A program made the position numbers and the translations under genes. The notes beneath the pieces are model-generated. The model was not told where the DNA came from. It did no database searches and saw only the letters and a program-made list of their open reading frames with translations. A stretch of DNA of 64,000 nucleotides, taken from Methylophilus sp. (lineage in GTDB: Bacteria > Pseudomonadota > Gammaproteobacteria > Burkholderiales > Methylophilaceae). This document shows positions 5,286-64,000 of the stretch, piece by piece; position 1 is the stretch's first letter; every line of letters begins with the position of its first letter. The stretch is taken from NCBI RefSeq assembly GCF_008015755.1, contig NZ_SSGF01000006.1, forward strand, positions 62,001 through 126,000. The letters run 5' to 3'.

Positions 5286-5391
5286 GTGCAAGACCAATCC
5301 CTGTCTGGTAACATTCCTTCAGACACGCAATTTTATTGCAGGTTTTAGACACAAAAAATGCTATGCAGCCATGATGATTGGGGTTCGATAA

Positions 5392-5823: not shown

Positions 5824-5833
5824 CAAATCAGTC

Positions 5834-6148: not shown

Positions 6149-6155
6149 AGCGAAA

Positions 6156-6317: not shown

Positions 6318-6430
6318 TTATTGCCGAACAGCCTTCTATTTTTTGTTAATCTCTATTAGCATTTTATTTTTTTAACATCTCGCAAATATTGCAAACTTAT
6401 AAGAAACATATGCCCCTTGAAACTATTGCA

Positions 6431-7462: not shown

Positions 7463-7506
7463 TTTTTAGACTAGACAACCTACTATTGGAAACATTTGGA
7501 CTTTAA

Positions 7507-21622: not shown

Positions 21623-22384
21623 CTAAAAGCGGACGTCTACCTTACCGGAAGACTGCGCCACGCCTTTTACAATCTGACCACTACTGACTTTCACATCCAC
21701 CACCTGGCCCACATTGGCGGTTTGCATGGCAGTGCCATCGGCAGTGATGACGAAGCCGTCACCACGACTATTTAACTGTACGGTTTGTCCTTGCATAATC
21801 ACTGGCACAGACTTTAATAATTCAGGTCTTAACACAGTGCCTAATGGCAAGTTCAACGCGGCTTGCTTACCAGCCAGCATAGACAAATCTGTAATGATGC
21901 CCGCAGGCAATTTGCTTAAATCACCAGCCTGCATCACCACGTCTGTGGGTTGTACTGCAGAGCCTTGGGCAACCGGCAAACCAGTGACTGCGTATTCTCC
22001 CCACACCTGCACATCGGCCTGCACGTAAAGCGTCCATGGCTTGGTGTCAGATTGCAGGCAACGCACACCAATATGGGTTTTACCCCACAAACGTGCGCCC
22101 TGCACGGTAAACCCTTCCATCAAGGCACACTCGGCAATGCGGATGCGGCTATCCAGCGGCTGAATCTCGATGTTGACTTTGCCCGGATACCCTTGTGTCT
22201 GGCTTTGCACATATTGCATCGCCGTCTGATACAAGCGGCTGTGCATGTCGTTACCCACAGTGGCAGCACCCGCTGCGTGCTGATTCGCAATCACAGTGCG
22301 GTCTGCCGCATGCACAGAGCCACTCATCAGCCATAACAGGCCAACAATGAGCGTCATCACAATCTGGGGCTGGTGTTGTTTCAT
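21623..22384 (-). CDS. flgA: Flagellar P-ring assembly chaperone FlgA
   Basis: 253 residues from the ATG at 22384; the track start at 22489 adds an implausible tail. A signal peptide (IVMTLIVGLLWLMSGSVHAA) directs it to the periplasm. The C-terminal half carries the SAF domain: WGEYAVTGLPVAQGSAVQPTDVVMQAGDLSKLP and GQTVQLNSRGDGFVITADGTAMQTANVGQVVDV. FlgA assists assembly of FlgI into the P ring. It is transcribed divergently from flgB, the common arrangement. Confidence 0.9.
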   Translation of the reverse strand: MKQHQPQIVMTLIVGLLWLMSGSVHAADRTVIANQHAAGAATVGNDMHSRLYQTAMQYVQSQTQGYPGKVNIEIQPLDSRIRIAECALMEGFTVQGARLWGKTHIGVRCLQSDTKPWTLYVQADVQVWGEYAVTGLPVAQGSAVQPTDVVMQAGDLSKLPAGIITDLSMLAGKQAALNLPLGTVLRPELLKSVPVIMQGQTVQLNSRGDGFVITADGTAMQTANVGQVVDVKVSSGQIVKGVAQSSGKVDVRF

Positions 22385-22423
22385 GTGCCCTATTTTACGT
22401 ATCGCGGGCGGATTTAATATCGG

Positions 22424-22451
22424 AATTAAAGGGGATTTCCCCCGTTTAATT
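22424..22451. repeat. Imperfect palindrome in the flgA-flgB divergent region
   Basis: AATTAAAGGGGATTTCCCCCGTTTAATT has arms AATTAAA-GGGG and CCCC-GTTTAATT that pair apart from one inserted base. It sits 40 bases upstream of flgA and 170 bases upstream of flgB. It could be an operator or a 5'-UTR hairpin of flgA; I cannot assign a regulator. Confidence 0.4.
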
Positions 22452-22619
22452 GAAGAATCATCGTATAGGCCGCGGCGTACACTAAGCATAGCTAGTAAAA
22501 GTCACGTGTGCAAACCAGACCTGCTTAATCGGGTTAACGGTCACCACAGACAAAACTTTAGAGGTTCGACAGCAACAAGCGTTGAACAGGGCTTGAGAAC
22601 AGCCAGGAAAGGATAAACG

Positions 22620-23054
22620 ATGATAAACAAACTGGACGCCGCACTGAATTTCCATCAGACGGCATTGCGCGTGCGCAATGAACGTCAAGAGCTGTTGGCA
22701 TCGAATATTGCCAATGCCGATACGCCGCAATATAAAGCACGCGATATCGACTTTCAGTCTGCCATGAAGGCGGCATTACAACCGAATGCTTCTGCGGGCA
22801 CACCTACAAACGGTGGCGCCCTGCAACAAACTAATAGTGGCCATTTAAACGGCATGGGTAACAGTGGCTATGTGAGTGGCGCCAGTGACCCGCTGTTCCG
22901 CTCTGTGGTACAAGGCTCGGCCGATGGCAACACAGTTGATATGGATGTTGAGCGTAATGCTTATGTCGATAACGGTATCCGTTATGAAGCCAGCCTGACC
23001 ATGATAGGCGGCCAGATTAAAAAGATGCTGTCTGCGATTAACGGTCAGCAATAA
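22620..23054 (+). CDS. flgB: Flagellar proximal rod protein FlgB
   Basis: A 144-residue rod protein. The N-terminal MINKLDAALNFHQTALRVRNERQELLASNIANADTPQYKARDIDF is the canonical FlgB signature, with the ASNIANADTPxYKA motif shared by axial proteins. The C-terminal helix (LTMIGGQIKKMLSAINGQQ) completes the coiled-coil D0 domain. It forms part of the proximal rod in the periplasm. It heads the flgBCDEFGHIJ operon, preceded by AGGAAAGG. Confidence 0.93.
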   Translation: MINKLDAALNFHQTALRVRNERQELLASNIANADTPQYKARDIDFQSAMKAALQPNASAGTPTNGGALQQTNSGHLNGMGNSGYVSGASDPLFRSVVQGSADGNTVDMDVERNAYVDNGIRYEASLTMIGGQIKKMLSAINGQQ

Positions 23055-23070
23055 TTAAAGGAGGTCAGTG

Positions 23071-23475
23071 ATGTCTCTGTTTAACGTATTCAAAATTTCC
23101 GGCTCGGCCATGAGTGCGCAATCGCTGCGCCTGAACACCGTCGCCAGTAACTTAGCCAACGCCGATAGTGTGGTGAGCTCAGATGGCAAGCCCTACCAGT
23201 CCAAACAAGTCGTGTTCAAGGCGGTGCAGGATGCCGCCAACAAGAGCAGCACGGTTGAGGTAGATCGCGTCATTGAAGATACCAAGCCAGGCAAAATGGT
23301 CTACGACCCCAAACACCCTATGGCCAATGGCGATGGTTATATCACCATGCCAAATGTCAACGTGACCGAAGAAATGGTGAACATGATTTCAGCCTCACGC
23401 GCCTATCAAAACAACGTGGAAACCATGAATGCGGCGAAAACCATGTTGCTTAAAACACTGAATATCGGTCAATAA
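23071..23475 (+). CDS. flgC: Flagellar proximal rod protein FlgC
   Basis: 134 residues from the ATG at 23071, preceded by AAAGGAGGT; the track GTG at 23068 is unlikely. It shows the axial N-motif RLNTVASNLANADSVVSSDGKPYQSKQVVF and the C-terminal VNVTEEMVNMISASRAYQNNVETMNAAKTMLLKTLNIGQ typical of FlgC. It joins FlgB, FlgF and FliE in the rod. The gap to flgB is 16 bases. Confidence 0.93.
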   Translation: MSLFNVFKISGSAMSAQSLRLNTVASNLANADSVVSSDGKPYQSKQVVFKAVQDAANKSSTVEVDRVIEDTKPGKMVYDPKHPMANGDGYITMPNVNVTEEMVNMISASRAYQNNVETMNAAKTMLLKTLNIGQ

Positions 23476-23495
23476 CCTGCAGAAAGGATTTCAGC

Positions 23496-24164
23496 ATGAC
23501 CACCGTTAATACCAACAATCAGGTGTCACAGGATTTACTGAGTTCAGTGAACACGCGCAATACCGCCAGCACCACCGATGAGACACAAGACCGCTTCATG
23601 ACCCTGCTGGTGACGCAGATGAAAAACCAGGATCCGTTAAACCCGATGGATAACGCCCAGGTGACCAGCCAGATGGCGCAGTTAAACACGGTGACTGGCA
23701 TTAACAAGCTGAATGAAACCATGAGCAGCCTGATTGGCAGCGTACAACTGGGTCAAGCCTACCAGGCCACCAGCATGATAGGCCGTAACGTATTGGTAGA
23801 GGGCAAAACGCTCACCCATACCGAGACGGGTGGTTACTTTGGCGTCAACGTACCTAACGGCGCAGATAGCTTGTCCGTGGCCATTAAAAACGGCTCTGGT
23901 GCCACTATTCGCACACTGACCTTTGGTAAACAGGATGTGGGTGTTAACGCACTGAGCTGGGATGGAAAAATGGATGATGGCACGACGGCACCAAGTGGTG
24001 ACTATAGCTTTGACATTACCGCCAAAACCGGCGATACCGCAGTGAGCAGTACTGCCCTCAGTTTGGCACAGGTCCAAAGCGTCACCACCAGCACCAGTGG
24101 TGCAAAACTGAACCTGAGCAATAACACAACGGTATCTGCATCGGATATTTCAGAGATTTTCTAA
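23496..24164 (+). CDS. flgD: Hook assembly scaffold FlgD
   Basis: A 222-residue hook-capping protein. The conserved N-terminal block DRFMTLLVTQMKNQDPLNPMDNAQVTSQMAQLNTVTGINKLN is diagnostic. The C-terminal part (residues ~85-200) has the FlgD tudor/Ig-like pattern, including NALSWDGKMDDGTTAPSGDYSFDITA. FlgD caps the growing hook and is discarded once the hook is complete. It is the third gene of the operon and is followed by flgE. Confidence 0.93.
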   Translation: MTTVNTNNQVSQDLLSSVNTRNTASTTDETQDRFMTLLVTQMKNQDPLNPMDNAQVTSQMAQLNTVTGINKLNETMSSLIGSVQLGQAYQATSMIGRNVLVEGKTLTHTETGGYFGVNVPNGADSLSVAIKNGSGATIRTLTFGKQDVGVNALSWDGKMDDGTTAPSGDYSFDITAKTGDTAVSSTALSLAQVQSVTTSTSGAKLNLSNNTTVSASDISEIF

Positions 24165-49442: not shown

Positions 49443-50240
49443 TTAACCTCTCAGCAATGTCATCACTTGGTTAGGCAACTGGTTCGCTTGAGCCAGCATC
49501 GCAGTACCAGCTTGTTGCAGAATCTGTGCACGTGTCATCTTGGCTGTTTCTGAAGCAAAGTCAGCATCAGTGATACGTGACTTAGCAGCAGACATGTTCT
49601 CAGAAGCCACACCCAGGTTGCTGACCACTGAAGCAAAACGGTTTTGGTAAGCACCCAATGTCGCACGGCTGGTGTTCACTGTCGTCAGTTGTGCGTCAAT
49701 CGCTGTAATCGCAGATGATGCAGCAGCAGCTGAAGACAGGGAACCGGACAGAGAAGCTGCTGACACAGATGACACGCTAATCGTATCGCCACTGTCTGCA
49801 CCGATCTGGAAGTTATAACCAGCACCGAATGCAGCTTGACCGTTAAACTTGGTTGCAGTACCCAAACGTGTCAGTTCTGATTTCAGTTGTGAAAATTCTG
49901 TATCCAGGTTTGCACGGTCACCAGAGCTGTAAGAACCGTTAGCTGCTTGTACAGCCAGTTCACGCATACGTTGTAAGGCATCAGTTGCGCTGCTCAAACC
50001 ACCTTCTGCAGTTTGCAGGAAAGAGATCGCGTCGTTGGCGTTACGTGTTGCAACATCCATGCCGCGAACTTGTGAGTCCATACGGGTTGCAATCGCCATA
50101 CCAGCCGCATCGTCTTTAGCGCTGTTGATACGCAGACCAGAAGACAAGCGTTGAATAGAAGTATTCAGGCTGCCTTGTGAAGCGTTTAAGTTACGTTGTG
50201 CATTCAAGGATGCCAAGTTGGTGTTGATTACTGAAGCCAT
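49443..50240 (-). CDS. fliC: Flagellin FliC
   Basis: A 265-residue flagellin. The D0/D1 ends are conserved: MASVINTNLASLNAQRNLNASQGSLNTSIQRLSSGLRINSAKDDAAGMAI and RITDADFASETAKMTRAQILQQAGTAMLAQANQLPNQVMTLLRG. The variable middle is very short and serine-rich (SVSSVSAASLSGSLSSAAAASS, residues 156-176), offering several surface hydroxyls for O-glycosylation. AAGGAGAT precedes the ATG, and a sigma-28 promoter lies ~115 bases upstream. The genes beyond, on both strands, are glycosylation or phosphonate genes, so modification is likely. Confidence 0.95.
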   Translation of the reverse strand: MASVINTNLASLNAQRNLNASQGSLNTSIQRLSSGLRINSAKDDAAGMAIATRMDSQVRGMDVATRNANDAISFLQTAEGGLSSATDALQRMRELAVQAANGSYSSGDRANLDTEFSQLKSELTRLGTATKFNGQAAFGAGYNFQIGADSGDTISVSSVSAASLSGSLSSAAAASSAITAIDAQLTTVNTSRATLGAYQNRFASVVSNLGVASENMSAAKSRITDADFASETAKMTRAQILQQAGTAMLAQANQLPNQVMTLLRG

Positions 50241-50353
50241 GTTAAATCTCCTTTAGAGTCGTATATCCAGTTAAGTGTCAAATCGTCATATTACTTTCAA
50301 CGTTGATCGCTATTTACCACTTAATGTTTGCTATCTAGCGTTGTTAGTTGTGT

Positions 50354-50380
50354 TATCGACCGCTTCTGAAATTTCTTTAA
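50354..50380 (-). promoter_or_regulatory. Sigma-28 (FliA) promoter of fliC
   Basis: On the minus strand: TAAA, exactly 15 bases, GTCGATAA, differing from GCCGATAA at one position. It predicts a 5' leader of roughly 105 bases before the fliC ATG, which carries a good Shine-Dalgarno sequence. Confidence 0.85.
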
Positions 50381-50730: not shown

Positions 50731-52029
50731 ATGGCATCAGTTTATGTAGGGATGACGGTAGACATCTTGCACCATGGCCATATCAATATTATTGAGCAGG
50801 CCAGAAAGTATGGCGACGTTACCATCGGCCTGTTATCAGACGCCGCGGTGGCAGACCATAAACGTCTGCCTTACCTGACTTATGAACAGCGCAAACAGAT
50901 CGTCAGCAATATTCGCGGCGTGGTGAACGTGGTGCCGCAGGAAGAATGGGACTACGCGCCTAACCTGCTCAAATACAAACCCGACATCATGGTGCATGGC
51001 GACGACTGGCTGGAAGGCCCATTGGTGCCCTACCGTGACCGTGCGCGTGCCGCCCTGGCTGAATATGGCGGCCATTTAATTGAGATTCCTTATACACGCG
51101 GCGTGTCTTCTAATGAAATGCTGGGCCAAATCCAGGCGCTGGGCACCACGCCGGATATTCGCCGCCGCACCCTGAAAAGATTACTCACGGTCAAACCGAT
51201 TTCGCGCTTTATTGAAGCGCACAACCCGATCTCTGCCCTGATTGCCGAACACGCCACCGCACAGCGCAATGGCAAAACCTGCCAGTTTGACGGCTTCTGG
51301 TCGAGCTCTTTGACTGACTCTACCGCCCGCGGCAAGCCGGATATTGAAGCGGTCGAAATCAACAGCCGTTTGTCGAATATTAATGACATTTTTGATGTCA
51401 CCACCAAACCTTTAATTATGGATGCTGACACCGGTGGCAAACTGGAGCACTTTGAACTCAATGTGCGCAGCATGGAACGCCTGGGCATTTCCGCCACCAT
51501 TATTGAAGACAAGATTGGTTTAAAAAAGAATTCTTTATTTGGCAATGAAGTGCCACAGTTACAGGACGAGATTGAGCCGTTTTGCGAAAAAATCATGGCA
51601 GGTCGTGCTGCGCGTGTCAGCGATGACTTTATGGTCATTGCCCGTATCGAGAGCCTGATTCTCGATAAAGGTATGGCAGATGCGGTGAAGCGCGCACAAG
51701 CCTATGTCGGTGCAGGCGTAGATGGCGTCATGATACACAGTCGCCAAAAGTCACCTGATGAAGTATTTGAGTTTGCCAAAATCTTTAAATCAGAGTTTCC
51801 GACCACGCCATTGGTGTGCGTCCCAACCAGTTACAACATGGTGACAGAAGAAGAATTGGCTTTACGTGGATTCAACCTGGTGATTTATGCCAACCACATG
51901 ATGCGCGCAGCTTATCCGGCCATGCAAAATGCGGCGATAGAAATCCTTAAAAATGGCAGGACCGCAGAAATCGAATCCAACCTGATGTCGATTAACGATG
52001 TGCTGGAACTGATTCCAGGCACCAAATAA
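50731..52029 (+). CDS. aepX: Cytidylyltransferase-phosphoenolpyruvate mutase fusion
   Basis: A 432-residue two-domain protein. Residues 1-140 are a TagD/GCT-type cytidylyltransferase: VYVGMTVDILHHGHINIIEQARKYG with the HxGH motif, and PYTRGVSSNEML in place of RTxGISTT. Residues ~155-430 are a PEP mutase: FDGFWSSSLTDS, PLIMDADTGG, and IIEDKIGLKKNSLFG, an exact EDKX5NS signature that separates PEP mutases from isocitrate-lyase relatives. The mutase makes phosphonopyruvate from PEP; the other half should activate a phosphonate as a CMP ester. Nucleotidyltransferase-PEP mutase fusions are known. AAGGAG lies 8 bases before the ATG. It heads the operon. Confidence 0.92.
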   Translation: MASVYVGMTVDILHHGHINIIEQARKYGDVTIGLLSDAAVADHKRLPYLTYEQRKQIVSNIRGVVNVVPQEEWDYAPNLLKYKPDIMVHGDDWLEGPLVPYRDRARAALAEYGGHLIEIPYTRGVSSNEMLGQIQALGTTPDIRRRTLKRLLTVKPISRFIEAHNPISALIAEHATAQRNGKTCQFDGFWSSSLTDSTARGKPDIEAVEINSRLSNINDIFDVTTKPLIMDADTGGKLEHFELNVRSMERLGISATIIEDKIGLKKNSLFGNEVPQLQDEIEPFCEKIMAGRAARVSDDFMVIARIESLILDKGMADAVKRAQAYVGAGVDGVMIHSRQKSPDEVFEFAKIFKSEFPTTPLVCVPTSYNMVTEEELALRGFNLVIYANHMMRAAYPAMQNAAIEILKNGRTAEIESNLMSINDVLELIPGTK

Positions 52030-52053
52030 CCGTCACCACATAAGCGGAGCATC

Positions 52054-53232
52054 ATGATGATACCAGCCGAGGCATTTTTAAGCGCATTACAAACCGAGCA
52101 GGTGCAGTTTTTTGCCGGTGTGCCAGACTCACTGCTCAAAGAGTTGTGCGCCTGCTTTTCAGACACGCTGGCGACAGGTCAGCATGTGATTGCTGCCAAC
52201 GAAGGCGGCGCAATTGGCCTGGCGATTGGTCATTACCTGGCCACGCATCAGCCTGCGCTGGTCTATATGCAAAACTCCGGCCTGGGCAATGTGATCAACC
52301 CGATTGTGTCACTGGCAGATCCACAGGTGTATGGCATTCCGATGTTGCTGGTGGTTGGCTGGCGCGGTGAACTCAATGCGCAAGGTGAACAAATCCATGA
52401 TGAACCGCAGCACGTAAAACAGGGCCAGATTACCTTGTCACAACTTGATGTGCTGGGCTTACCTTATCAAGTGATGGCCGAGGACATAGCCACGGCGCAT
52501 GCGCAAATCAACACCTTATTGCAGCAAGCGATGACTCGCCAAGGTCCGGTCGCATTGGTGGTGCGCAAGCAAAGTTTTGCGCCGTATAAATCGGTGAAAA
52601 CAAGCACGGCCCCCGCCTCAACCCTGGCAGATAAATTACCCGTGCTGCACAGCCGTGAACAGATGATTGAACAAATTGTGTCTGCCTTGCCAGAAGAGGC
52701 TGCCGTGGTAGCGACCACCGGCATGGCCTCACGTGAACTATTTGAACTGCGCAAAGCGCAACAGGCCGGACACGGCCGTGACTTTCTCACCGTTGGCGGC
52801 ATGGGCCATGCCTCGCAAATTGCCTGTGGCATTGCGCTGGCACAACCAGAGCGACAAGTGGTGTGTATTGATGGCGATGGCGCCCTGCTCATGCATATGG
52901 GCAGCCTCACCATCAGTGCCCAGCAGGCGAACTTGCTGCACATTGTGCTGAACAATGGCGCGCATGACTCCGTGGGTGGTCAACCCACAGTAGCTGCACA
53001 ATTGACACTGGCTGAGATTGCCAGTGCCGCAGGCTACGGGCAGGTCTACAGCGTGTCTGGCACAGAATCATTAAACACTGCCTTGCAACAAGCCCTGGTC
53101 AGTGGCAAAAGCAGTTTTATTGAAGTGCTATGCCGTAAAGGGGCGCGGGCTGACCTGGGTCGCCCGACGCGCACCCCGGCCCAAAACAAACAAGATTTCA
53201 TGCAGTTTTTAACCGAGGTGGAATATGCCTGA
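52054..53232 (+). CDS. aepY: Phosphonopyruvate decarboxylase
   Basis: A 392-residue ThDP-dependent enzyme. The N-terminus has VQFFAGVPDSLLKELCACFSD and AANEGGAIGLAIGHYLAT with the catalytic Glu. The ThDP-binding motif is GDGALLMHMGSLTISAQQANLLHIVLNNGAHDSVGGQPT. It converts phosphonopyruvate to phosphonoacetaldehyde, the irreversible step that pulls the PEP mutase reaction forward. It lies 24 bases after the mutase gene and overlaps the transaminase gene by 8 bases. Confidence 0.93.
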   Translation: MMIPAEAFLSALQTEQVQFFAGVPDSLLKELCACFSDTLATGQHVIAANEGGAIGLAIGHYLATHQPALVYMQNSGLGNVINPIVSLADPQVYGIPMLLVVGWRGELNAQGEQIHDEPQHVKQGQITLSQLDVLGLPYQVMAEDIATAHAQINTLLQQAMTRQGPVALVVRKQSFAPYKSVKTSTAPASTLADKLPVLHSREQMIEQIVSALPEEAAVVATTGMASRELFELRKAQQAGHGRDFLTVGGMGHASQIACGIALAQPERQVVCIDGDGALLMHMGSLTISAQQANLLHIVLNNGAHDSVGGQPTVAAQLTLAEIASAAGYGQVYSVSGTESLNTALQQALVSGKSSFIEVLCRKGARADLGRPTRTPAQNKQDFMQFLTEVEYA

Positions 53233-54220
53233 AGCATCGTCTAGCATACACGCCCATGTGGCCACACAAAACCAGCACAAAGTGCTGTTCACAGCCGGGC
53301 CTGCGAGCTTGCTCGAAGAAAACCTGCTTGGATTGCGCCCTTGTTTTGGCCGTGGTGATGTAGATTACAATCAGGTAGAAGATGCGGTATTAAGCGCGCT
53401 CAAAACCATGACAGGGCACACACAGATTGCGCGCCTGCAAGGCTCAGCCAGCCTGGCGCTGGAAATCGCCAGTCTGAACTTTTTACACGGCAAGGTACTG
53501 GTCATCGACAGTGGGTATTACGCCCAGCGATTAGCCAGCTTTGCGCAACTGGCGCAACGCACGGCAGGTGAAGTGTCACTGGTCACCGTCTGCGACTGGC
53601 AGCAATTGACCAATGTCAGCGGTAAATATGACTGGGTCGTCGCCTGCTACACCGAAACCAGCGCCGGTTTATTACTGCCCATAGAGGATTTACGCGCCCT
53701 GGCAGACCGTGTCGGCGCGCAGCTGATGCTGGATGCCACCGCCTCTATCGGCCTCGAAGCCGATCACAATCTGGCTGATGTGATTGCCTACAGCTCCTGC
53801 AAAGGCCTGTTTGGTCTCACCGGTGCCTCATTTATTGCGTTTAACCAGTTACCCAAACACGAGGTCGACTCGTTTTACCTTAACCTGGCCACACATCTCG
53901 AACGCCGCATGACTGGCCCTTATCATGCCATCGCCTCTTTATATGAAGTGTTGCCCAAGCATACCGATTTGCGCGAAGCCGTGTTTATCAACAAGGCGCA
54001 GATGCTGAAGAAAATTGCCGCTTACACCACCCACCCTGTGCATTATCAACCAGTGCTATGCACCTGGGTCGATGCCAAGGTCAGCAGCCAGGATGCGCGC
54101 GCCGTGCTTTACCAGCCACGCGGCATCAGCCGTGGCAGCGTGGTGTGCCATTTAGGCGAAGCACACCTGGGTAGTACCGCACGCGGCGCCATCCTCGATT
54201 TACTGGAGTTACAGCCATGA
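53225..54220 (+). CDS. 2-aminoethylphosphonate-type transaminase (class V)
   Basis: A 331-residue PLP enzyme of the class V aminotransferase family. VLFTAGPASLLEENLLGLRPCFGRGD is the N-terminal pattern seen in 2-AEP and serine-pyruvate transaminases; LMLDATASIGLEADH has the cofactor-binding Asp, and IAYSSCKGLFGLTGASF carries the PLP lysine. Directly after mutase and decarboxylase, it should make 2-aminoethylphosphonate from phosphonoacetaldehyde. It is a little shorter than PhnW (~360-370 residues) and may belong to a separate biosynthetic subfamily. Its stop overlaps the next ATG (ATGA). Confidence 0.87.
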   Translation: MPEASSSIHAHVATQNQHKVLFTAGPASLLEENLLGLRPCFGRGDVDYNQVEDAVLSALKTMTGHTQIARLQGSASLALEIASLNFLHGKVLVIDSGYYAQRLASFAQLAQRTAGEVSLVTVCDWQQLTNVSGKYDWVVACYTETSAGLLLPIEDLRALADRVGAQLMLDATASIGLEADHNLADVIAYSSCKGLFGLTGASFIAFNQLPKHEVDSFYLNLATHLERRMTGPYHAIASLYEVLPKHTDLREAVFINKAQMLKKIAAYTTHPVHYQPVLCTWVDAKVSSQDARAVLYQPRGISRGSVVCHLGEAHLGSTARGAILDLLELQP

Positions 54221-54630
54221 TGCAGCCAGCAAAACGCATTATGGTCGATATGTCAGCCACGCTGATCCACCACGGCCACGTGCGCCTGTTAAAAGCCGCC
54301 AAACAACTAGGCCATGTGGTGGTGGCCTTAACCACCGACGAAGAAATCCGCGCCAAGAAAGGCTACGAGCCCGAGCTGGATTATGCTGCCCGTGCCGAGG
54401 TGTTACTGGCCATGCGCGATGTCGACGAAGTCGTGCCTAGCCCCTGGCTGCTCGATGAAGCCTTTTTGCAACAACACAAGATAGACCTGCTGGTGCATGG
54501 CCACGACAACAGTAATCCGATTGCAGCCGACAAGCTATATATTTTGCCACGCACCGAAGGCATCAGCAGCACCTTGTTGCGTGCCCGCGTGCTCAAAGCC
54601 GTCAGTCAAAAAATGGAAGCAAACACATGA
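54217..54630 (+). CDS. Second TagD/GCT-like cytidylyltransferase
   Basis: A 137-residue stand-alone nucleotidyltransferase. MVDMSATLIHHGHVRLLKAAKQLGHVVVALTTDEEI contains the HxGH motif and RTEGISSTLLRARV is the C-terminal RTxGISTT motif, both in consensus form. The family joins CTP to a phosphorylated alcohol such as glycerol-3-phosphate. The operon therefore has two such domains, the other fused to PEP mutase, so either two substrates are activated or one copy has diverged. ATGA overlaps at both ends show strict translational coupling. Confidence 0.88.
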   Translation: MMQPAKRIMVDMSATLIHHGHVRLLKAAKQLGHVVVALTTDEEIRAKKGYEPELDYAARAEVLLAMRDVDEVVPSPWLLDEAFLQQHKIDLLVHGHDNSNPIAADKLYILPRTEGISSTLLRARVLKAVSQKMEANT

Positions 54631-55325
54631 GTAACCTCTGGCAACAGATTTGGGAAAAACGTACGCTGCAACCGCAACACGCCATCACGCTGGATACCTT
54701 GATTGCGCTCGATGGCTTTGACAGCGGCGCAGGCAAAATCAACCTGGCAGACTGGCAGGAATATACCCGCCGTATCAGTGACAAACTGGGACTTAAGTCT
54801 GGCGACTCAGTGTTTGAAGTCGGTTGCGGTGCTGGGGCGTTTTTATACGCCTTGCGCCAGCAACACAGCCTGACGGTGGGTGGCCTCGATTATGCCGCCG
54901 GACTCATAGAAGCCGCCCAGCAAGCCATGCCGGATGGTGACTTCCAGGCGCAATCTGCGCAAACCATGGCCACCGAGCCGCAATATGATTTTGTGATCGC
55001 CAACAGCGTGTTTCATTATTTTGATGAAGCCATGGCAGCCCAGGTGTTCCAGGCTATGTGGCAAAAAGCCAGAGTTGGCGTCGCCATTCTCGATATTCCG
55101 CATGCCGCGACGCGCGACGCCTGCGAGCACGCCCGCCGCGATGCGCTGAGCATTGCCGAATATGAAGAAAAATACCGTGGCTTGCACCACACCTATTACA
55201 CGCCTGAGTGGTTTAGCCAGCAATTGCCAACCAAACCACAGCAGGTATTTGAAAGCTGCGTGCCAAATTACGCACAAAGCCAATACCGTTTCAGTGTTAT
55301 TTTTACTAAACGCTTGCATGGATAA
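54627..55325 (+). CDS. Class I SAM-dependent methyltransferase of the phosphonate operon
   Basis: A 232-residue methyltransferase with motif I VFEVGCGAGAFLYALRQQ (near residue 62), GGLDYAAGLIEAAQQAM and YDFVIANSVFHYFDEAMAAQV. It has no membrane segments. The position between a cytidylyltransferase and a CDP-alcohol transferase suggests methylation of the phosphonate or its nucleotide-activated form, for instance N-methylation of 2-aminoethylphosphonate. That substrate is an inference. It starts in an ATGA overlap and ends 6 bases before the next gene. Confidence 0.83.
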   Translation: MSNLWQQIWEKRTLQPQHAITLDTLIALDGFDSGAGKINLADWQEYTRRISDKLGLKSGDSVFEVGCGAGAFLYALRQQHSLTVGGLDYAAGLIEAAQQAMPDGDFQAQSAQTMATEPQYDFVIANSVFHYFDEAMAAQVFQAMWQKARVGVAILDIPHAATRDACEHARRDALSIAEYEEKYRGLHHTYYTPEWFSQQLPTKPQQVFESCVPNYAQSQYRFSVIFTKRLHG

Positions 55326-55331
55326 GCCATC

Positions 55332-56720
55332 ATGACGACTACCCCACACCAACCCGTGTTTACTTTCTTTTATACCGACAACTGCGAGCGCCAGGCCTTA
55401 GCGCCGGTGGCCGATGAGATCGCCAGCAGAGGCTATGTGATTCAATGGAGCACCAACTCCAAGCAATATGCTGAGGTCGGAGTGTATTGTGAGCACGCGT
55501 GCAAACCGAATGCCGGATTTTCCGTCATCCTGCTACATGACCTGGCGCAGCGCCATGATATCTGGCCACACTTCTGGCATCACGAACCATGGTCGGCGTT
55601 TGATATCGGCGTGGTGCCTGGCCCAGCCTGGGTTGAGCGCTGGCAGACACAAGCCAATTTTAAGCAGGCACAGCCCAAATTAGGCATGTTTGACCTCGGT
55701 TGGCCCAAAGCCGACCTGGTCTACCGCAACCAGGACACCTTTAAACAGGAGGCGCAAAAACTGCGTGAACAACTGGGCCTGAAATATGAGCACTCCATCC
55801 TCTATGCGCCCTCCTGGGAGAACCATGGCAAGCAGGATGAGTTTGTACAGGCCCTGAAAGACTTACCAGTCAACTTGCTGTTAAAACAAGCGCCCTGGTC
55901 AGACAAATATCGCTGGGTGCTGAATAATATTGACGAGATGGACGCCCTGCATCGCAATTACGCCGACAACGTGTATGTCGTCGATCGCGAAATCAGCATC
56001 ATGTATTGCTTAGGCCTGGCCGATGTCATGGTCTCGGATGAGTCCAGTGTGCTGACAGAAGCCTTGCTGCTGGATGTGCCTGGCATTGCCGTCACCGACT
56101 GGTTGATTCCAGACACTAATCCACCACGTCCGGCCAGTGTGCCCTACGACTATGTAATTAAAACCGTGAAAGCCGACTTGCGCCGCACGGTTGAAGACGT
56201 GTTGCAAAACGCCGCCGTCTATCAACAACAGATCACAGAAAACAAACAACATCAGTTTGCCAACCTAGGCCAAAGTGCAACCTTGATTGCCGATAACATT
56301 CTCGCTGCCCTCGCTGGCGCAACAGAATTGCCGACACCAGCGATCAAATCCCAGGTAGAGATTGACCGCAACACGTATCACTATGCAGAAAAACTGGCCG
56401 CCGAAGGTGATTTGAAATTGTCGACGCAAGTCATGCTGGAGTTGATTAAAAAAGAAAGCTGCTGCTGGGAGCCCTACAATGACCTGGGCACCTTGTTGGT
56501 CAGCCAGGGCCAATTTGAAGATGCTGAGCTGTTGCTTGAAAAAGCCGTGCTGCTGGCACAAGAAAATGCCACGATCCCCCTCAGCAACCTGACTGAGGTG
56601 TATTGCCTGCAAGAAAAAGCCGACAAAGCCTTGCTGACCCTGGCCAAACTCAGTCAATACACACCTAACCCGGTTGGTTCTATTCCGCATATCCGCCGTT
56701 GCATGGAAACCATGTTTTAA
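55332..56720 (+). CDS. TagB/TagF-like CDP-alcohol phosphotransferase with C-terminal TPRs
   Basis: A 462-residue protein. Residues ~1-345 resemble the CDP-glycerol glycerophosphotransferase (TagB/TagF) family: LYAPSWENHGKQDEF, VYVVDREISIMYCLGLADVMVSDESSVLTEALLLDVPGIAVTDW, with the conserved SDESSVLTEALLLD nucleotide-site motif. Residues ~350-460 are TPR-like: WEPYNDLGTLLVSQGQFEDAELLLEKAVLLAQ. It should transfer a phospho- or phosphono-CMP-activated group to an acceptor. TPRs are unusual in TagF relatives and match the TPR-based flagellin transferases across the terminators, suggesting a protein or glycoprotein acceptor. Confidence 0.83.
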   Translation: MTTTPHQPVFTFFYTDNCERQALAPVADEIASRGYVIQWSTNSKQYAEVGVYCEHACKPNAGFSVILLHDLAQRHDIWPHFWHHEPWSAFDIGVVPGPAWVERWQTQANFKQAQPKLGMFDLGWPKADLVYRNQDTFKQEAQKLREQLGLKYEHSILYAPSWENHGKQDEFVQALKDLPVNLLLKQAPWSDKYRWVLNNIDEMDALHRNYADNVYVVDREISIMYCLGLADVMVSDESSVLTEALLLDVPGIAVTDWLIPDTNPPRPASVPYDYVIKTVKADLRRTVEDVLQNAAVYQQQITENKQHQFANLGQSATLIADNILAALAGATELPTPAIKSQVEIDRNTYHYAEKLAAEGDLKLSTQVMLELIKKESCCWEPYNDLGTLLVSQGQFEDAELLLEKAVLLAQENATIPLSNLTEVYCLQEKADKALLTLAKLSQYTPNPVGSIPHIRRCMETMF

Positions 56721-56868: not shown

Positions 56869-59800
56869 TTATGTAAACAATTGACGTACCGGCAACTCGG
56901 CACGCGTAAACTCAGCGGTGAGGCCATTCACCACATGCTCTGGTGAACCCTGTGTCATGTTCTGCAAACGGTTAAACACGCTAATCAAGGCCTGCAATTG
57001 ATCATCACGATAATGGTAGCCATTGGCCTCCAGCACCGCCAGCGTCAAGCTGCCAAGGTTGGTTGGCGTGCTGGCATGCGGTTTACCGCAACTACGCACG
57101 CGATGCAAAGTGAGGAACAAACCACGCAAGGCAACAAACGCCACTGGCAGCGGGATTGCAAAGTCCCATTCCAGGTCAAAGAAATGGCCTTGGCCGTTTT
57201 TGTCCATGACAAAGTTGGTCGGGGTGGCGTCAAAATACTGCGAAGGCAACAAGGCCGAATAGCCTGCAAATTCCGGCAAGGTTTTGCCGCCGGTCAGCGC
57301 AGCCGCTTCCAGGCCTTGCAACCATGGCGCAGCCCACGCTGCTAAATCTTCTACACGCCAACCTGGGCGGTTCATCAACTGGGTCAGTTTGTCCATCCAC
57401 AACTGACCGCCATGGTAAGGCGCATGCTCCCAATCGGCTTGCAGCAATTGCGCCGTTTCGCCGGTATTGCGCGTACGGGTGGCCAGGCCTTGTGCATCAT
57501 GCACAAACTGGGTTTCTTTGCTAAACACGGCCTGGCGCTGGCAGCCATAATGTGCTGCCAAGACGTCCGGATGCAATTTTCCAGACTGACGTTGCGGATA
57601 AGCGACAAACATAAAGGAGTTAGCCACATCTTCTACCAGGTTATTGCGTGCAATCACCTGCCAGGCATTTTCTAATGAGAAGGTCGGGTGACGTGGCGAT
57701 TGTCTGTCATGCACCACTGAACCAGCGGCTAAGGCACCGACATCCCAACCTGCGGCACGGTGAGCCTGGTTAAAGCCCTCAGGATAAATCACGCTGACTG
57801 GGGTTTTGTAATCAGGCAATGGTACGTAAAGCTCTGTCGTTTCAAAACCGGCGCTGCGAATCAAGGCATCCAGCTCTACTCGGCCAAACGTGATCGGGCT
57901 GGTTGTGCTGTAAGAATCATTAATGCCATACATGGCCTGCCCCATGTGGTCTTCAGGCGCGCCGCAGAAATACTTGAGGCCGAGCTGGTTTTCAATCGCC
58001 ACAATCAGCATGCCATCTTCTTTAAGGAAAGACTTGGCTGTTTGCAGCAAAAAGCGCAAAGGATCAGCTTCTTTGACATAGACCTGCGCATATTCAAGCA
58101 CGCCAATCAGCGTCACCACATCAAACTTTTCGTCAGTTTCAAACGCCTGGATGAGGTCAGAATAAATGGTCACATTATTTAGGTCTGCACAACGCTGGCC
58201 AATCACGCGTGCACGGTTTGGGCTGCCTTCCAGCGCGACCACTTCGCCCCCCAACTCACCGAGGAAACGCGTAATTGCACCACAACCTGCCCCTAGTTCG
58301 AGCACTTTACCGTTAGCAATTTTGTCAGCAAACGGGCGCAGCAAATTGGCACGCTGTGAAGTGAGGTGATAGTAGCTAGGCCAGTCTGTGGCTTTGGCCG
58401 CCAACTCACTTGAAAACACGCTCTTGTCACGAGACTGGCGGATCATGTCATACAGGCGCTGTTCGGCATTGCCTACATCCTGGTAGCCAAATGCTTCGTT
58501 TTGCGCACGCTGGTAAAAATTGTCTTCCGCACGGTAAATATACGGACCTTTACGCACAGCATCCGCTGCTGGCTGGCTGTACTGCTGTTGCAGTGCATCG
58601 GCATCGGCCGCAGCCAGGCCATTCTGGCGGGCAAATGTGATGACATCCAGCACCTCATTTTTTGGCGCGGTCAGTGACAACACCTCAATATAGGCTTGCC
58701 AATAGGCCGGTTGTTTTGGAGCCAGGATCACCGCTTGCTCCAGCAATGGCAATACCTCTTCTGCCTTGCCTGCTTGCTGTGCCAGCAAGCCCAATTGGTA
58801 ATAAGTCGGCGCATGTTTGTCATCAATGCGCAAAATTTCCTGATAAAAGTGCATCGCCTGGGCCAAGTCGCCTTTTTCCTGCATCTGCAGTGCCTGCTGA
58901 AACACTTCAGTAATCGAGTCTTGCAGTGCGCTAGCTTGTGGGTTTAGTGTTGTATTCATGGGGATACCTTTATCAGAGGGTTCAGTCGCGCCCAGCGCAA
59001 CAGAAGGTTCTTTCAGCGTTAAAGAGGGAATAGCAAAACTGCTCGCAGCCTGCCCCTGGCACCAGCGCTGCCACATCTGGCGCATGGCCTGTGACAGGGA
59101 CTGTGCCAATGGCGCAGGCTGTGCCAGCGGAGACTGCGTAAAAAGGGTGCGCATCGTGGCGCGTAAATCAGCCAATGCCTGCAGATCAGACAACACCTGC
59201 GCGGCCTGTTGTACATAGTGCGTTGGGCTTGCGGCAATATAGTCATTCAAGCCCAGATGCTGCATCAAGGCCATGGCACCACGGCTAGCCAGGCGATCAC
59301 CTGCCACACACAGCGTAGGCACGCCCATCCATAAAGCATGCGCGGTCGTGGTCACGCCGTTAGACGGAAAGGTGTCCAGGCAAATATCCACCTGATGATA
59401 TTGCTGCAAATAACGCAGCATACCGGTGCGGGCATAAAACGATAAACGGTCTGCCGTGATGCCTGCCTCAGCAAACCATTGCTGCACATGCGCACAAGCG
59501 CCCGCCTCTGCCATGCCGCCCAACACCATGCGACTGCCAGCGTAGGCTTGCATCACGGCAGTCCATTGCTGCACCGTGGCCTGGGTAATTTTGTTGGGGC
59601 GGTTAAAGCAGCCAAAAGTGATATAGCCATTGCTGAGTGCAGGCAAAATATTCACATCCGGCGCTTGCGGATGCGGCACAAATGGCGCATTCACAGGCAA
59701 CTGCACCAGTTGCTCGGTAAACTGCTGGTCAAACTGCCCGGCAGGCAACAATGCACTGTCTGCCAGGTAATAATCGATTGACGTCAGGCCTGTGGTATTC

Positions 59801-62800
59801 AAATAGCCCAACCAACTGGCCTGCACCGGTGCCGGTTTTCTGGCGAAGGTTAGCAAACGGTTGCCGGCAGTATGGCCGGACAAATCCATCAGAATATCGA
59901 TCTGGTCTTGTCGGATAGTCTCAGCCAGCGCATCATCAGACAGATTTGAAACCACGCGCCATTGTTTGAAATACTGACGCATCTCGGCCGTGACTTCGTC
60001 TTCCAGGGTGTAATTGGCATAGGCAAACAGTTGTAATGTGTTGTCCTGCGCCAATCCAGGCAATACAGGCAACAGAAAATGCGCCACTGAATGCGCACGC
60101 AAATCGGCAGAGACAAACCCTACGCGTAGTGGCCGCTGTGCCTCACGCGTATTGCTATGCGGCCGCCAATCGGCTTTTAACGGTGCCTCATAGAGTGCGG
60201 CATAAGCCGTATGCGCTTGTAACAAGGCTTCGTTATCCACATGCGCGGCATGCGTCATGCAAAACAGCAAGTTGCTAAAGCAATCGGCATACTGCGGCTG
60301 CAAGCGCAGCGCCTGTTTGAATTGCTTGATGGCTTCATCGACCTCGCCCAAATCTTTGAGCACACTGCCCAGATTGTTATACGCCGCGGCGTAGTCTGGT
60401 TTCAGGTGTATGGCCTGGGCAAAGGCGTCTGCAGCCGCATTGAGATCATTTTGCGCCTTGAGCACTAGCCCGTAGTAGCAATGCTCTTCAGCGCTGTGCT
60501 TATTCAGCGCCAGTGCATTGCTGGCCGCGGTTCGTGCATCTTTTTTCTGGATCATCAACACGTCTGACAGCATTTTCCAGCCACTGAGCCAGGCCGGATA
60601 TTGCTGCAATAGCGTGTGCAATTCACCTTCCATCTCGTCATATTGCTGTTGTTCGAACAAGCCAAGCAATGCGTGCTGGACTTGATCTGACGGCTGTACA
60701 TTAGTCGTTTGCACTGGCAACTGCCAGTCTTGCATCAGCGCTTGTAACGCCTGGGTATGCTGGCCGCTGTTAACGGCTTGCGCCACTACTTGCTCCAGCT
60801 CAGCTGTTGCATCGCTGTGTTTGAGTGCCGACAGATAGCTGCTTAATAACTGCCACTGACTTGGGGCCAGCGCATACGCCTGTGCCAGCAAATGCAAGGC
60901 CTCTGTTGGCTGTTGGTTGTGCCAATAAATCAAGCCCAGATTATGTGTGGCGAGGGCGTGATGAGCATCTACTGCCAGAATTTCTTGGTAAAGCTGTGTG
61001 GCCGTGGCAAAGTCACCCTGCTGCTGCGCACTTGAGGCCAGGTCAAAGACCTCGGCCATAGCGGCCTGCATCGCTGGAGACGTAGTCTGTGCGACTGGCG
61101 TTGCCTCCCATTTTTGGTGGTAACTCACATAGGTTTCGCGCCAACGGGCACTGCCAAACGCGCCGCCACTCTGGTGTGTCATACGCACTGGCCACACGCC
61201 TAGTTTCAACCCGGCACGTGTCGCCGTGCGACAAAAATCCAAGTCATAAAAATGAAACTCAAACTGCTGGTCAAAACGGACACCGCTTTGTAATAAGGTC
61301 TGCTTGTGCGCGGCCAAAAATACGCCATCCATGAGCTGGCATTCGCCAGACACGTCGCCATAACTGGAGGCTGGCCCAAACGCATGCTGACCATGGCTGA
61401 CCGCGCCGCGCAAATATTTGGCATCATCCCAGGTGAATTGCAAATCGACAAAGCACCAACCAGGCTGACCTGCCTGCACTCTTGCATTGCCCGCAATGCC
61501 AATCACATCATAGTGGTCCAGGCCGCGCTGTATAGTGTGGACAAAGGTGTTTTCGTCCAGCCAGACATCATCGTGGATGAGTACCAGCAAAGCCTGGTCT
61601 GGCGCGGCGGAAATCGCTTCGTTAAACACTTGCGACAAACCACGTGTATTTTCATAAGCCACCACTGGCATCAAACGCTTATCCTGCTGCATATGGCGCT
61701 GGAGTGAGCGGCCAAGGGCAGATTCACCCCAGAAAGCTTGTTCTGTCATGCGCGTCGCGCTGACGATCCACACGGGCTGCTCACCGCTAAAAGCGTCCTG
61801 TACTGGCGACTCAGCCAGTAATTGTTGTGCTGTCAGCTGCGGCAGGGCCTGTTGCCATAACTTGAACAATAATTGCTCAAAGTCCTGGGCAAACTGGTCT
61901 GCATTCATCAAGGGCGAAGCTAAAACTTGCTGGCGCAGTTGTGCGCGCAAGGTTGCCAATGCAGCTAAATCACTGGTCAAGGCAATGGCTTTGCGCACGT
62001 AATCCTCACGACTGTTGGCTACCCAGTCATGCAGGCCTGCGCAATGCATCAAGCTTGCGCCTTGGCGGGCGATTAATGTTTCGCCCAGCAACGTCAGTGT
62101 AGGCACGCCCATCCACAAAGCTTCACAGGTTGTGGTGCCGCCAGTAAACGGGAAGGTATCCAGAATCACATCAATCTGGTGATGGTTACGCAGGTATTCA
62201 TCTCTGGGCACCATGCCATGCAAAGTGCAACGCTCAGGGGAAATGCCATATTGCTGCAATCTGGCGAGCGCTTCTGCGCGTACCAAGCCATCATTAAAGG
62301 CTTTGGTTTGCCAGAACAGTTTGGCCGTTGGCAAGGCTTGCATTACCTCGCCCCAGCAAGACAATACGTCATCGCTGACCTTGCTGTAGTTTTGAAAACA
62401 ACCAAAGTTGATGGCGCCGTTAGTCAGTGCAGGCAAGTCATTGACAGCAATCTCAAACGGCGGCGCGGTAAAGCACATGCGCGTATGAGGCAGGTGCACT
62501 ACTTGCTCGGTGAATTGGATCGCGACCTGCGCATCGATACTGATGGGGTCGGCGATCACATAATCCATCACCGGCAAGCCAGTGGTTCCCCAATAGCCCA
62601 ACCAGGTTGCCTGCACGGGCGCAGGTTTATGGGCAAAAATAGGCAAACGTGTACCGCCGGACAAGCCTGATAAATCGAGCAGGATGTGAATCCCATCTTC
62701 ACGAATCTGTTTAGCGGCTTGTGCATCGGTCAACCCGGCCAATGAGCGCCACTGGTTGCAGAGGTCTTTCAGCTCATGTGAAAACGCATCTTCGCGGCCG

Positions 62801-64000
62801 TCAGTAGAGTAACCATAAATTTCTAGGCGGCTGGCATCAAACGCCTGCAACCATTGATGCAGAAAATAGCCCACCGGGTGTTTACGCAAGTCTGCAGACA
62901 CCAGGCCAATACGGAGTCGCTGCTCTTGTGCATGCACATGCCAGCTGTCATATGGCGTCACTTCCTGCATCATGGCAGCACCCAGTCTGTGCGCGTAATC
63001 TAGGCTCTCATGCAGCGGCAAGCTATTGCTATAACTGTTGGCAAATAACAGGTTTCTGAGCGCCATCATATGGGTGGGCGCGATCTGCAAGGCTTGTTTC
63101 AGGGTCGCAATCGCCGTGTCAATCTGCCCCATGTCCAAATACACATTAGCCAGGTTGATATAGCCCGGCATGAACTCAGGCTTGATGCGCAAGGCTTTTT
63201 CCAGGCAGGCTATCGCCTCGGTATAGCGGCCTAACATACGCAAGCTGATGCCGTAATTGCTCAAAATACTTTCTGACTCAGGCAGTTGCGTCAATGCTTT
63301 TTCGCAATAGACACAGGCTTTGTCATAAGCGTTTCTGGCATTCTCAATCAAGCCAAGATTAGCCTGCACATACGGGTTCTCAGGATCCAGCGCCAGTGCT
63401 TTCTGGCAATAATTTTCAGCCTCGCCGTATAACTGCTGGTTCAACATCTCGGTAGCCAGGTTATTCAGTGTCTCCGCACTCACCTCTTGCACCTGCATGA
63501 TCTGGTCAATATAAGCCTGATACTCGCGGGTACGGTGGGTCACACGGTAAAGTTTGGCCAGATTTTTGAGCAGAGACACCTCAGTTGGGTTTAACGCCAT
63601 ACCTGCCAGCAGCCACTGCTCAGCTTCTTCTACATCGCCATGCTTAAGGTATAAGGCACCGAGGTAGCTATAGGCCTCCACATAGTCTTTTTGCAACGCA
63701 ATCGTTTGCTGATAGGCGGCAATCGCTTCTGTCGTATTGCCCAGTTGGTCCAGCGCAAGCGCCATATTGAAAAAGATCACGGCATTGTCAGGCTCAATTG
63801 CCACCGCTTCGCGATAATACTGAATCGCCTCCAGCGGTTTTTCGGCCTCATGTAACAAGGTCGCCAGTTCAAAATTGACACGGCCATCTTGCTGGTGGAT
63901 ATTCAAGCCGCGGCGCAGTAACTTTTCTGCCTCTTTTAACTGACCCGTTTGCTTAAGCACACTGGCCCAGTTGGCATAGGCCTGGCTAAACACCGGGTTG
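56869..64000 (-). CDS. Giant TPR-OGT-GT2-TPR-OGT-TPR-methyltransferase (5' end outside window)
   Basis: At least 2374 residues and open to the window edge; the track start at 63993 is an internal GTG. Positions count from there. TPRs: 1-310. First SPINDLY/OGT domain (GT41): 355-715, with VSADLRKHPVGYF, YSKVSDDVL and DTFPFTGGTTTCEAL. GT2-like domain: 738-965 (VLIHDDVWLDENT, YDLDFCRTATRAG). TPRs: 975-1250. Second OGT domain: 1285-1640, with VSADLRAHSVAHF, NKITQATV and DTFPSNGVTTTAHAL. TPR: 1690-1760. Methyltransferase: 1890-2060 (VLELGAGCGAITRFLGELG). A tail to 2374 has DATPTNFV and GHFFDLEWDF, reminiscent of kinase-fold loops. Catalytic His and Lys equivalents look intact in both OGT units. 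Likely flagellin O-glycosylation; target inferred from position. Confidence 0.9.
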   Translation of the reverse strand, partial: NPVFSQAYANWASVLKQTGQLKEAEKLLRRGLNIHQQDGRVNFELATLLHEAEKPLEAIQYYREAVAIEPDNAVIFFNMALALDQLGNTTEAIAAYQQTIALQKDYVEAYSYLGALYLKHGDVEEAEQWLLAGMALNPTEVSLLKNLAKLYRVTHRTREYQAYIDQIMQVQEVSAETLNNLATEMLNQQLYGEAENYCQKALALDPENPYVQANLGLIENARNAYDKACVYCEKALTQLPESESILSNYGISLRMLGRYTEAIACLEKALRIKPEFMPGYINLANVYLDMGQIDTAIATLKQALQIAPTHMMALRNLLFANSYSNSLPLHESLDYAHRLGAAMMQEVTPYDSWHVHAQEQRLRIGLVSADLRKHPVGYFLHQWLQAFDASRLEIYGYSTDGREDAFSHELKDLCNQWRSLAGLTDAQAAKQIREDGIHILLDLSGLSGGTRLPIFAHKPAPVQATWLGYWGTTGLPVMDYVIADPISIDAQVAIQFTEQVVHLPHTRMCFTAPPFEIAVNDLPALTNGAINFGCFQNYSKVSDDVLSCWGEVMQALPTAKLFWQTKAFNDGLVRAEALARLQQYGISPERCTLHGMVPRDEYLRNHHQIDVILDTFPFTGGTTTCEALWMGVPTLTLLGETLIARQGASLMHCAGLHDWVANSREDYVRKAIALTSDLAALATLRAQLRQQVLASPLMNADQFAQDFEQLLFKLWQQALPQLTAQQLLAESPVQDAFSGEQPVWIVSATRMTEQAFWGESALGRSLQRHMQQDKRLMPVVAYENTRGLSQVFNEAISAAPDQALLVLIHDDVWLDENTFVHTIQRGLDHYDVIGIAGNARVQAGQPGWCFVDLQFTWDDAKYLRGAVSHGQHAFGPASSYGDVSGECQLMDGVFLAAHKQTLLQSGVRFDQQFEFHFYDLDFCRTATRAGLKLGVWPVRMTHQSGGAFGSARWRETYVSYHQKWEATPVAQTTSPAMQAAMAEVFDLASSAQQQGDFATATQLYQEILAVDAHHALATHNLGLIYWHNQQPTEALHLLAQAYALAPSQWQLLSSYLSALKHSDATAELEQVVAQAVNSGQHTQALQALMQDWQLPVQTTNVQPSDQVQHALLGLFEQQQYDEMEGELHTLLQQYPAWLSGWKMLSDVLMIQKKDARTAASNALALNKHSAEEHCYYGLVLKAQNDLNAAADAFAQAIHLKPDYAAAYNNLGSVLKDLGEVDEAIKQFKQALRLQPQYADCFSNLLFCMTHAAHVDNEALLQAHTAYAALYEAPLKADWRPHSNTREAQRPLRVGFVSADLRAHSVAHFLLPVLPGLAQDNTLQLFAYANYTLEDEVTAEMRQYFKQWRVVSNLSDDALAETIRQDQIDILMDLSGHTAGNRLLTFARKPAPVQASWLGYLNTTGLTSIDYYLADSALLPAGQFDQQFTEQLVQLPVNAPFVPHPQAPDVNILPALSNGYITFGCFNRPNKITQATVQQWTAVMQAYAGSRMVLGGMAEAGACAHVQQWFAEAGITADRLSFYARTGMLRYLQQYHQVDICLDTFPSNGVTTTAHALWMGVPTLCVAGDRLASRGAMALMQHLGLNDYIAASPTHYVQQAAQVLSDLQALADLRATMRTLFTQSPLAQPAPLAQSLSQAMRQMWQRWCQGQAASSFAIPSLTLKEPSVALGATEPSDKGIPMNTTLNPQASALQDSITEVFQQALQMQEKGDLAQAMHFYQEILRIDDKHAPTYYQLGLLAQQAGKAEEVLPLLEQAVILAPKQPAYWQAYIEVLSLTAPKNEVLDVITFARQNGLAAADADALQQQYSQPAADAVRKGPYIYRAEDNFYQRAQNEAFGYQDVGNAEQRLYDMIRQSRDKSVFSSELAAKATDWPSYYHLTSQRANLLRPFADKIANGKVLELGAGCGAITRFLGELGGEVVALEGSPNRARVIGQRCADLNNVTIYSDLIQAFETDEKFDVVTLIGVLEYAQVYVKEADPLRFLLQTAKSFLKEDGMLIVAIENQLGLKYFCGAPEDHMGQAMYGINDSYSTTSPITFGRVELDALIRSAGFETTELYVPLPDYKTPVSVIYPEGFNQAHRAAGWDVGALAAGSVVHDRQSPRHPTFSLENAWQVIARNNLVEDVANSFMFVAYPQRQSGKLHPDVLAAHYGCQRQAVFSKETQFVHDAQGLATRTRNTGETAQLLQADWEHAPYHGGQLWMDKLTQLMNRPGWRVEDLAAWAAPWLQGLEAAALTGGKTLPEFAGYSALLPSQYFDATPTNFVMDKNGQGHFFDLEWDFAIPLPVAFVALRGLFLTLHRVRSCGKPHASTPTNLGSLTLAVLEANGYHYRDDQLQALISVFNRLQNMTQGSPEHVVNGLTAEFTRAELPVRQLFT

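Follow-up and report, generated by a model that had tools for sequence, protein, structure and literature searches.

The window analyzed here is a 64,000-nucleotide stretch of DNA from Methylophilus sp., a methanol-consuming bacterium, G000:C39:62001-126000 in the numbering of the source contig. Toward its end lie a flagellin gene (fliC), a six-gene phosphonate operon (50731-56720, plus strand) and a giant glycosyltransferase gene on the minus strand, with the operon placed between the other two and facing the giant (Table 1). The frame of the giant (56869-63999) contains 2,376 codons without a stop up to the window edge, and extension of the contig to the N-terminus placed the start at an ATG at G000:C39:126344, for 2,491 amino acids in total. 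A scan of genome contigs found full-length intact orthologues in seven named Methylophilus genomes (best-segment identity 68-94%), among them Methylophilus methylotrophus DSM 46235 (L018), two Methylophilus contigs with the C-terminal part only and three distant partial matches. The position of the ATG is kept in seven orthologues, and the eight full-length orthologues compared are 2,491-2,521 amino acids long with zero internal stops. Values of dN/dS for the modules with computable dS were 0.002-0.17, i.e. purifying selection. The giant is therefore a real and conserved ORF, neither a chance frame nor the assembly chimera which a preliminary description of this DNA had named as one of two findings that would overturn it, since intact orthologues are present in seven genomes and dN/dS does not exceed 0.17.

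Table 1. Features of the fliC, phosphonate operon and giant glycosyltransferase locus. Coordinates are those of the window unless marked; residue numbers are those of the full-length giant.
Feature	Coordinates	Strand	Evidence and remarks
Flagellin FliC, 265 aa, presumed substrate	49443..50240	-	PF00669 and PF00700
PEP mutase with N-terminal cytidylyltransferase-like domain	50731..52029	+	TIGR02320 equivalog, 410 bits (cut-off 319.6); EDK-x5-NS motif (EDKIGLKKNS)
Phosphonopyruvate decarboxylase	52054..53232	+	TIGR03297 equivalog, 480 bits (cut-off 312.5)
2-Aminoethylphosphonate aminotransferase-like protein	53225..54220	+	TIGR03301, 77.8 bits (below cut-off 360.8)
TagD-like cytidylyltransferase	54217..54630	+	TIGR00125 above cut-off
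SAM methyltransferase, possible N-methylation of aminoethylphosphonate	54627..55325	+	Pfam; substrate proposed
TagF-like phosphotransferase with C-terminal TPR, proposed CMP-phosphonate transferase	55332..56720	+	Pfam, PF04464
Giant modular flagellin glycosyltransferase (putative substrate), 2,491 aa	56869..64000; G000:C39:118869-126344	-	344 bases lie beyond the window end
Kinase-like C-terminal domain	56872..57561	-	D-x4-N-x12-D-x-E-W; predicted catalytic Asp D2372, codon 57229-57231
SAM methyltransferase domain	57598..58551	-	Most conserved module of the giant, 89-100% identity
Linker and TPR3 block	58570..58968	-	Least conserved part, 48-92% identity
OGT2, second GT41 unit, SPINDLY-like	58990..60159	-	Catalytic H1418, K1585
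TPR2 block	60175..61032	-	Pfam TPR matches
GT2-like unit	61045..61791	-	PF13712 Glyco_tranf_2_5; HDDV motif
OGT1, GT41 unit	61801..62934	-	PF13844; catalytic H489, K655
TPR1, N-terminal TPR array, proposed flagellin-binding	62935..63999, extends past the window	-	Pfam TPR; binding by FlmG precedent (PMC7591256)

From the N-terminus, the modules of the giant are TPR, GT41 (OGT1), GT2-like, TPR, GT41 (OGT2), TPR, methyltransferase and a kinase-like C-terminal domain. Pfam matched Glyco_transf_41 twice (353.8 bits in all against a curated cut-off of 25) together with many TPRs and a methyltransferase. The GT2-like unit scores 28.6 bits against a cut-off of 27 for PF13712 and 38-44 bits in several homologues, and its HDDV motif is invariant in the eight orthologues compared. 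The catalytic His and Lys of both OGT units are likewise invariant in 8/8 orthologues. These results bear out what the preliminary description had observed, namely an open frame of more than 2370 codons, three potential glycosyltransferase modules and a methyltransferase set among TPR blocks, and retained catalytic His and Lys in both OGT units.

The two GT41 units have different affinities. The best PDB match of OGT1 is 5djs (E 1.2e-75), followed by SPINDLY, while that of OGT2 is SPINDLY itself (7y4i, E 4.8e-69); of the two units, OGT1 alone retains the second OGT His, which in OGT2 is replaced by Asp, as in SPINDLY. In a tree the two units fall into separate clades (support 0.92 and 0.998), which rejects the possibility that OGT2 is an internal duplicate of OGT1. 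OGT1 forms a clade of its own, while OGT2 clusters with OGT2 genes that stand alone in other genera, therefore the chain appears to have grown by gene fusion.

Regulatory proteins are known targets of GT41 enzymes, SPINDLY among them. Together with the PDB search placing OGT2 closest to SPINDLY, this raises the question of whether the giant is a SPINDLY/OGT-like regulator that modifies other cytoplasmic or surface proteins, with fliC nearby by coincidence. We consider this very unlikely, as the linkage to fliC persists in two genera with different architectures and a separate GT41 protein of 609 aa is encoded elsewhere in the same genome (C33). The order fliC, phosphonate operon, giant is kept in all seven full-length loci. 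A precedent in domain layout is FlmG of Caulobacter crescentus, a TPR flagellin O-glycosyltransferase with flagellin-binding and glycosyltransferase domains which uses pseudaminic acid (PMC7591256). Both proteins combine an N-terminal TPR region with a soluble glycosyltransferase domain, and FlmG works on cytoplasmic flagellin. FlmG has two parts, whereas the giant joins two GT41 units, a GT2-like unit and a methyltransferase-kinase-like unit in one chain. By this analogy, the giant may be a variant of FlmG-like TPR flagellin glycosyltransferases, with flagellin as its putative substrate.

The domain of approximately 230 residues that follows the methyltransferase was missed in the preliminary description, yet it is conserved. 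It has zero Pfam matches, and PDB sequence searches with it gave no kinase. All 12 homologues aligned, the most distant at 27% identity, share D441, N446, D459, E461 and W462 (module numbering) without exception, and protein-kinase-like catalytic cores have the same D-x4-N-x12-D spacing. Comparison with an APH-type kinase profile, using a profile of 19 sequences, showed weak similarity, with a score of 27.4, an E-value of 0.0027 (single comparison) and a probability of 11%, and a four-sequence profile gave no match. The match beats 40/40 column shuffles (best 19.05) with both motifs in catalytic register, at a probability of only 11%. An AlphaFold model of the methyltransferase-kinase module reached a pLDDT of 42 and was unusable, and a search of viral contigs for more diverse homologues of this module found none.

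A similar pairing is known from Klebsiella pneumoniae O7, in which ORF6 is a proven methyltransferase-kinase that adds methyl-phosphate to a terminal sugar (PMC11231755). Its kinase is an unannotated 223-residue domain, AmiN-like, with catalytic D441, and its SAM residues are Y28, Y66, G91, G93, E112 and Y158 (PMC11231755). The module of the giant has Y23, Y61, G87, G89, E108 and Y154 (module numbering) at the SAM site. Judged from the published residue positions and our module numbering rather than from a sequence alignment, the spacings of 38, 26, 2, 19 and 46 match those of O7 ORF6, with 26 becoming 25 by a one-residue gap which is also seen in homologues. Thus both proteins have a methyltransferase followed by an unannotated kinase or kinase-like domain, and the spacing of Y, Y, G, G, E, Y and D along these published positions is nearly equal. 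They differ in context. In O7 ORF6 the capped glycan is an O-polysaccharide exported through an ABC transporter, and a coiled coil and GT2 modules follow the methyltransferase-kinase part, while the unit of the giant stands last in a flagellin-linked glycosyltransferase chain. WbdD of Escherichia coli O9a also has a methyltransferase and a kinase and puts methyl-phosphate on the glycan end (PMC3482155). The O7-type kinase is described as distinct from WbdD, and WbdD was absent among the best 60 of the 108 PDB sequences that the profile of the C-terminal unit matched, those listed being other methyltransferases. Assignment of the unit to WbdD was rejected on these listed matches.

Homologues of the whole methyltransferase and tail unit are present elsewhere in the class, the aligned ones being 27-34% identical to the unit of the giant, and stand-alone members within the family share 57% identity with it. 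In two annotated plasmid loci, such homologues lie directly downstream of ABC-transporter permease and ATPase genes, and two further genomes (loci L150 and L151) probably have the same arrangement, going by the sequences of the neighboring genes. Others are found in different glycan loci (L148 and L149) or without a recognizable glycan locus (L152). The invariant tail motif, the residue spacing shared with O7 ORF6 and the ABC-transporter-linked homologues make phospho-methyl capping the best reading, although the kinase activity is predicted. On sequence grounds, the C-terminal unit is more likely to phosphorylate and then methylate the end of a glycan than to perform simple O-methylation of a sugar. 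The methyltransferase of the preliminary description thus stands, while methylation by itself is probably an incomplete account, given the kinase-like tail and the O7 ORF6-like spacing.

Under the earlier assumption, the unit would only methylate a sugar at O or N, and its tail would have no catalytic role. This view agrees with Pfam, which sees a methyltransferase only, with the fact that a possible beta-3 (N-lobe) lysine of some homologues was not seen in Methylophilaceae, and with shorter homologues of one genus (L144-L146, 409-421 aa) that are without the kinase-like half. On the other hand, the D-x4-N-D-x-E-W core of the tail is invariant at 27-37% identity, the tail is under strong purifying selection, and kinase activity is proven for O7 ORF6, whose residues are laid out alike and whose kinase domain likewise lacks annotation. 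We therefore regard a plain methyltransferase as unlikely and retain phospho-methyl capping.

Relatives carry the same parts in other arrangements. In genus g7, genomes G051 and G027 encode a TPR-OGT1-GT2 protein (1,223 and 1,275 aa) separate from the methyltransferase-kinase (559-560 aa). In both genomes these genes belong to one co-directional run of separate genes in the order TPR-OGT1-GT2, six phosphonate genes and methyltransferase-kinase; the run also includes a GT9-like gene, and in G051 (L087) fliC lies at its end. Two other g7 genomes (G096 and G112) have an OGT1-GT2 protein of 1,701-1,703 aa and a stand-alone OGT2 of approximately 690 aa. The stand-alone OGT2 adjoins fliC in G096, G107 and G117 (loci L126, L127 and L131), and in G004 OGT2 is fused to a DegT-type aminotransferase. 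Four Methylophilus genomes without the methyltransferase-kinase carry other giants: OGT1-GT2-OGT2-radical SAM/SPASM in G105 (2,406 aa), OGT1-GT2-OGT2-GT61-GT2 in G087 (3,017 aa), OGT1-GT2-GT61-GT2 in G048 and, in G057, a protein that resembles the G048 one over the scanned part, upstream of the tail. In L123 (5865-13085, plus strand) the 2,406-aa giant has radical SAM/SPASM replacing the methyltransferase-kinase and is followed by a 1,153-aa TPR protein. Separately, L155 (G105, 3430-8231) contains three flagellin genes, compared with one in the other loci examined.

Across these relatives, as judged from their predicted domains, the OGT1-GT2 front end does not change, whereas the back end can be exchanged. 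Because close relatives encode these parts in separate genes or exchange them for others, the giant is probably a mix-and-match machine for decoration of flagella. The preliminary description had proposed an assembly line in which the order of modules may give the order of sugars. Its multi-enzyme chain and its link to flagellin gain support from the fliC synteny and from separate modules adjoining fliC. The proposed order is weakened by relatives in which the same modules are separate genes, differently arranged, missing or replaced (radical SAM, GT61): if such separate proteins act in trans on one glycan, the sugars need not follow the order of the modules.

The facing operon probably supplies a decoration of the 2-aminoethylphosphonate type, judging from its gene annotations. 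The aminotransferase-like protein is related but divergent, falling below the TIGR03301 cut-off, therefore the amino product is a predicted one. A homologue of the cytidylyltransferase in L090 is fused to an aminotransferase-like domain. In Pnt clusters with PntC, PEP mutase is fused to a cytidylyltransferase-type domain for nucleotidyl activation of surface phosphonates (PMC6697681), and the Methylophilus PEP mutase likewise carries a cytidylyltransferase-type domain. The characterized PntC enzymes are MobA/LicC-like, while in Methylophilus both cytidylyltransferase domains resemble TagD and the final transferase proposed here resembles TagF. In L020 (Methylophilus rhizosphaerae, 22316-23668) an in-frame stop separates the cytidylyltransferase-like part of PEP mutase from the mutase part, so that the gene is read as two ORFs of 150 and 299 aa.

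Among 120 genomes of the family, strong matches to the methyltransferase-kinase were found in 13, strong matches to the PEP mutase fusion in 13 and both in 12, a co-occurrence count that is inflated by shared ancestry and comes from unevenly sampled species. Only G102 has the methyltransferase-kinase without the PEP mutase fusion, and only G070 (48% complete) shows the converse. The G102 locus (L089, 9631-10438) has an internal deletion in its phosphonate genes, of which cytidylyltransferase fragments and the part of the TagF-like gene for the TPR tail remain, and both OGT1-GT2 and the methyltransferase-kinase are intact. Outside the family, among 274 genomes of the class, a close TagF-like gene was found only in G216, where it overlaps a methyltransferase-kinase gene by four bases and where a PEP mutase is also encoded in the genome.

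The phosphonate operon could be merely a neighbor that decorates another surface polymer such as LPS or capsule while the giant glycosylates flagellin. Surface tailoring, for example with AEP, is the destination of most bacterial phosphonate capacity (PMC6697681), the related cluster in G070 lies among sugar-nucleotide rather than flagellar genes, and G102 has dropped the phosphonate genes and kept the glycosyltransferases and methyltransferase-kinase. Yet in g7 the phosphonate genes lie inside the co-directional run, between the OGT1-GT2 and methyltransferase-kinase genes and upstream of fliC in L087, presence and absence of the phosphonate genes track the methyltransferase-kinase across the family, and the TagF-like protein has a TPR tail, whereas the match in the G216 homologue ends before that part. 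A separate target for the phosphonate therefore seems to us rather improbable.

With slightly better than even confidence, we favor a cytoplasmic flagellin-decorating system in which the giant glycosylates flagellin and caps the glycan with methyl-phosphate, and the operon adds phosphonate to the same glycan. The TPR array of the giant would hold cytoplasmic flagellin as FlmG does, OGT1 would prime an O-glycan on Ser/Thr, and the GT2-like unit and OGT2 would lengthen or branch it; we infer these sugars and this order of steps. The operon would make cytidylyl-activated 2-aminoethylphosphonate, possibly N-methylated, for attachment to this glycan by the TagF-like TPR-bearing transferase, and the C-terminal methyltransferase-kinase would add the methyl-phosphate cap. 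The chain would have arisen by fusion of genes still separate in relatives, with exchangeable C-terminal modules. More tentatively, and with more doubt than confidence on our part, Methylophilus flagella may carry a glycan that bears a C-P group and ends in methyl-phosphate, the product of a polypeptide made of swappable modules; an enzyme of the O-antigen-terminator type would then have been recruited to end a flagellin glycan. Among the papers searched, none was recognized as relevant to glycosylation of Methylophilus flagellin or to flagellin bearing methyl-phosphate.

Type A flagellin of Clostridioides difficile carries GlcNAc with a phospho-linked methylated group and sometimes 2-AEP, as detected by mass spectrometry, and a methyltransferase is encoded in the cluster (PMC8861647). 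The search for pepM was negative and the source of 2-AEP is still open (PMC8861647). In contrast to C. difficile, which lacks a known pepM, Methylophilus has a PEP-mutase operon beside fliC, and its genes are candidates for phosphonate placement on flagellin. The locus links TPR-type flagellin glycosyltransferases, SPINDLY-like enzymes, O-antigen chain terminators and phosphonate tailoring, which are usually studied apart. Methylophilaceae offer a natural series of separate genes, partial fusions, one giant chain and swapped modules, which is suited to asking if fusion of glycan enzymes fixes order or only proximity.

A sigma-28-like promoter was sought at the phosphonate operon and the giant and none was convincing; the only well-placed site is at fliC, where TAAAGAAATTTCAGAAGCGGTCGATAA lies upstream of the gene with one mismatch (window 50353-50379, minus strand). 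Directly upstream of the ATG of the giant and outside the window, at G000:C39:126345-126380, there is a highly conserved leader, AATAATAAGAGAAA..TTTTGGAAT, with equivalents in L015-L021. This leader occurs as a single copy in the genome and may form a hairpin (z -1.4 to -2.3, not strong).
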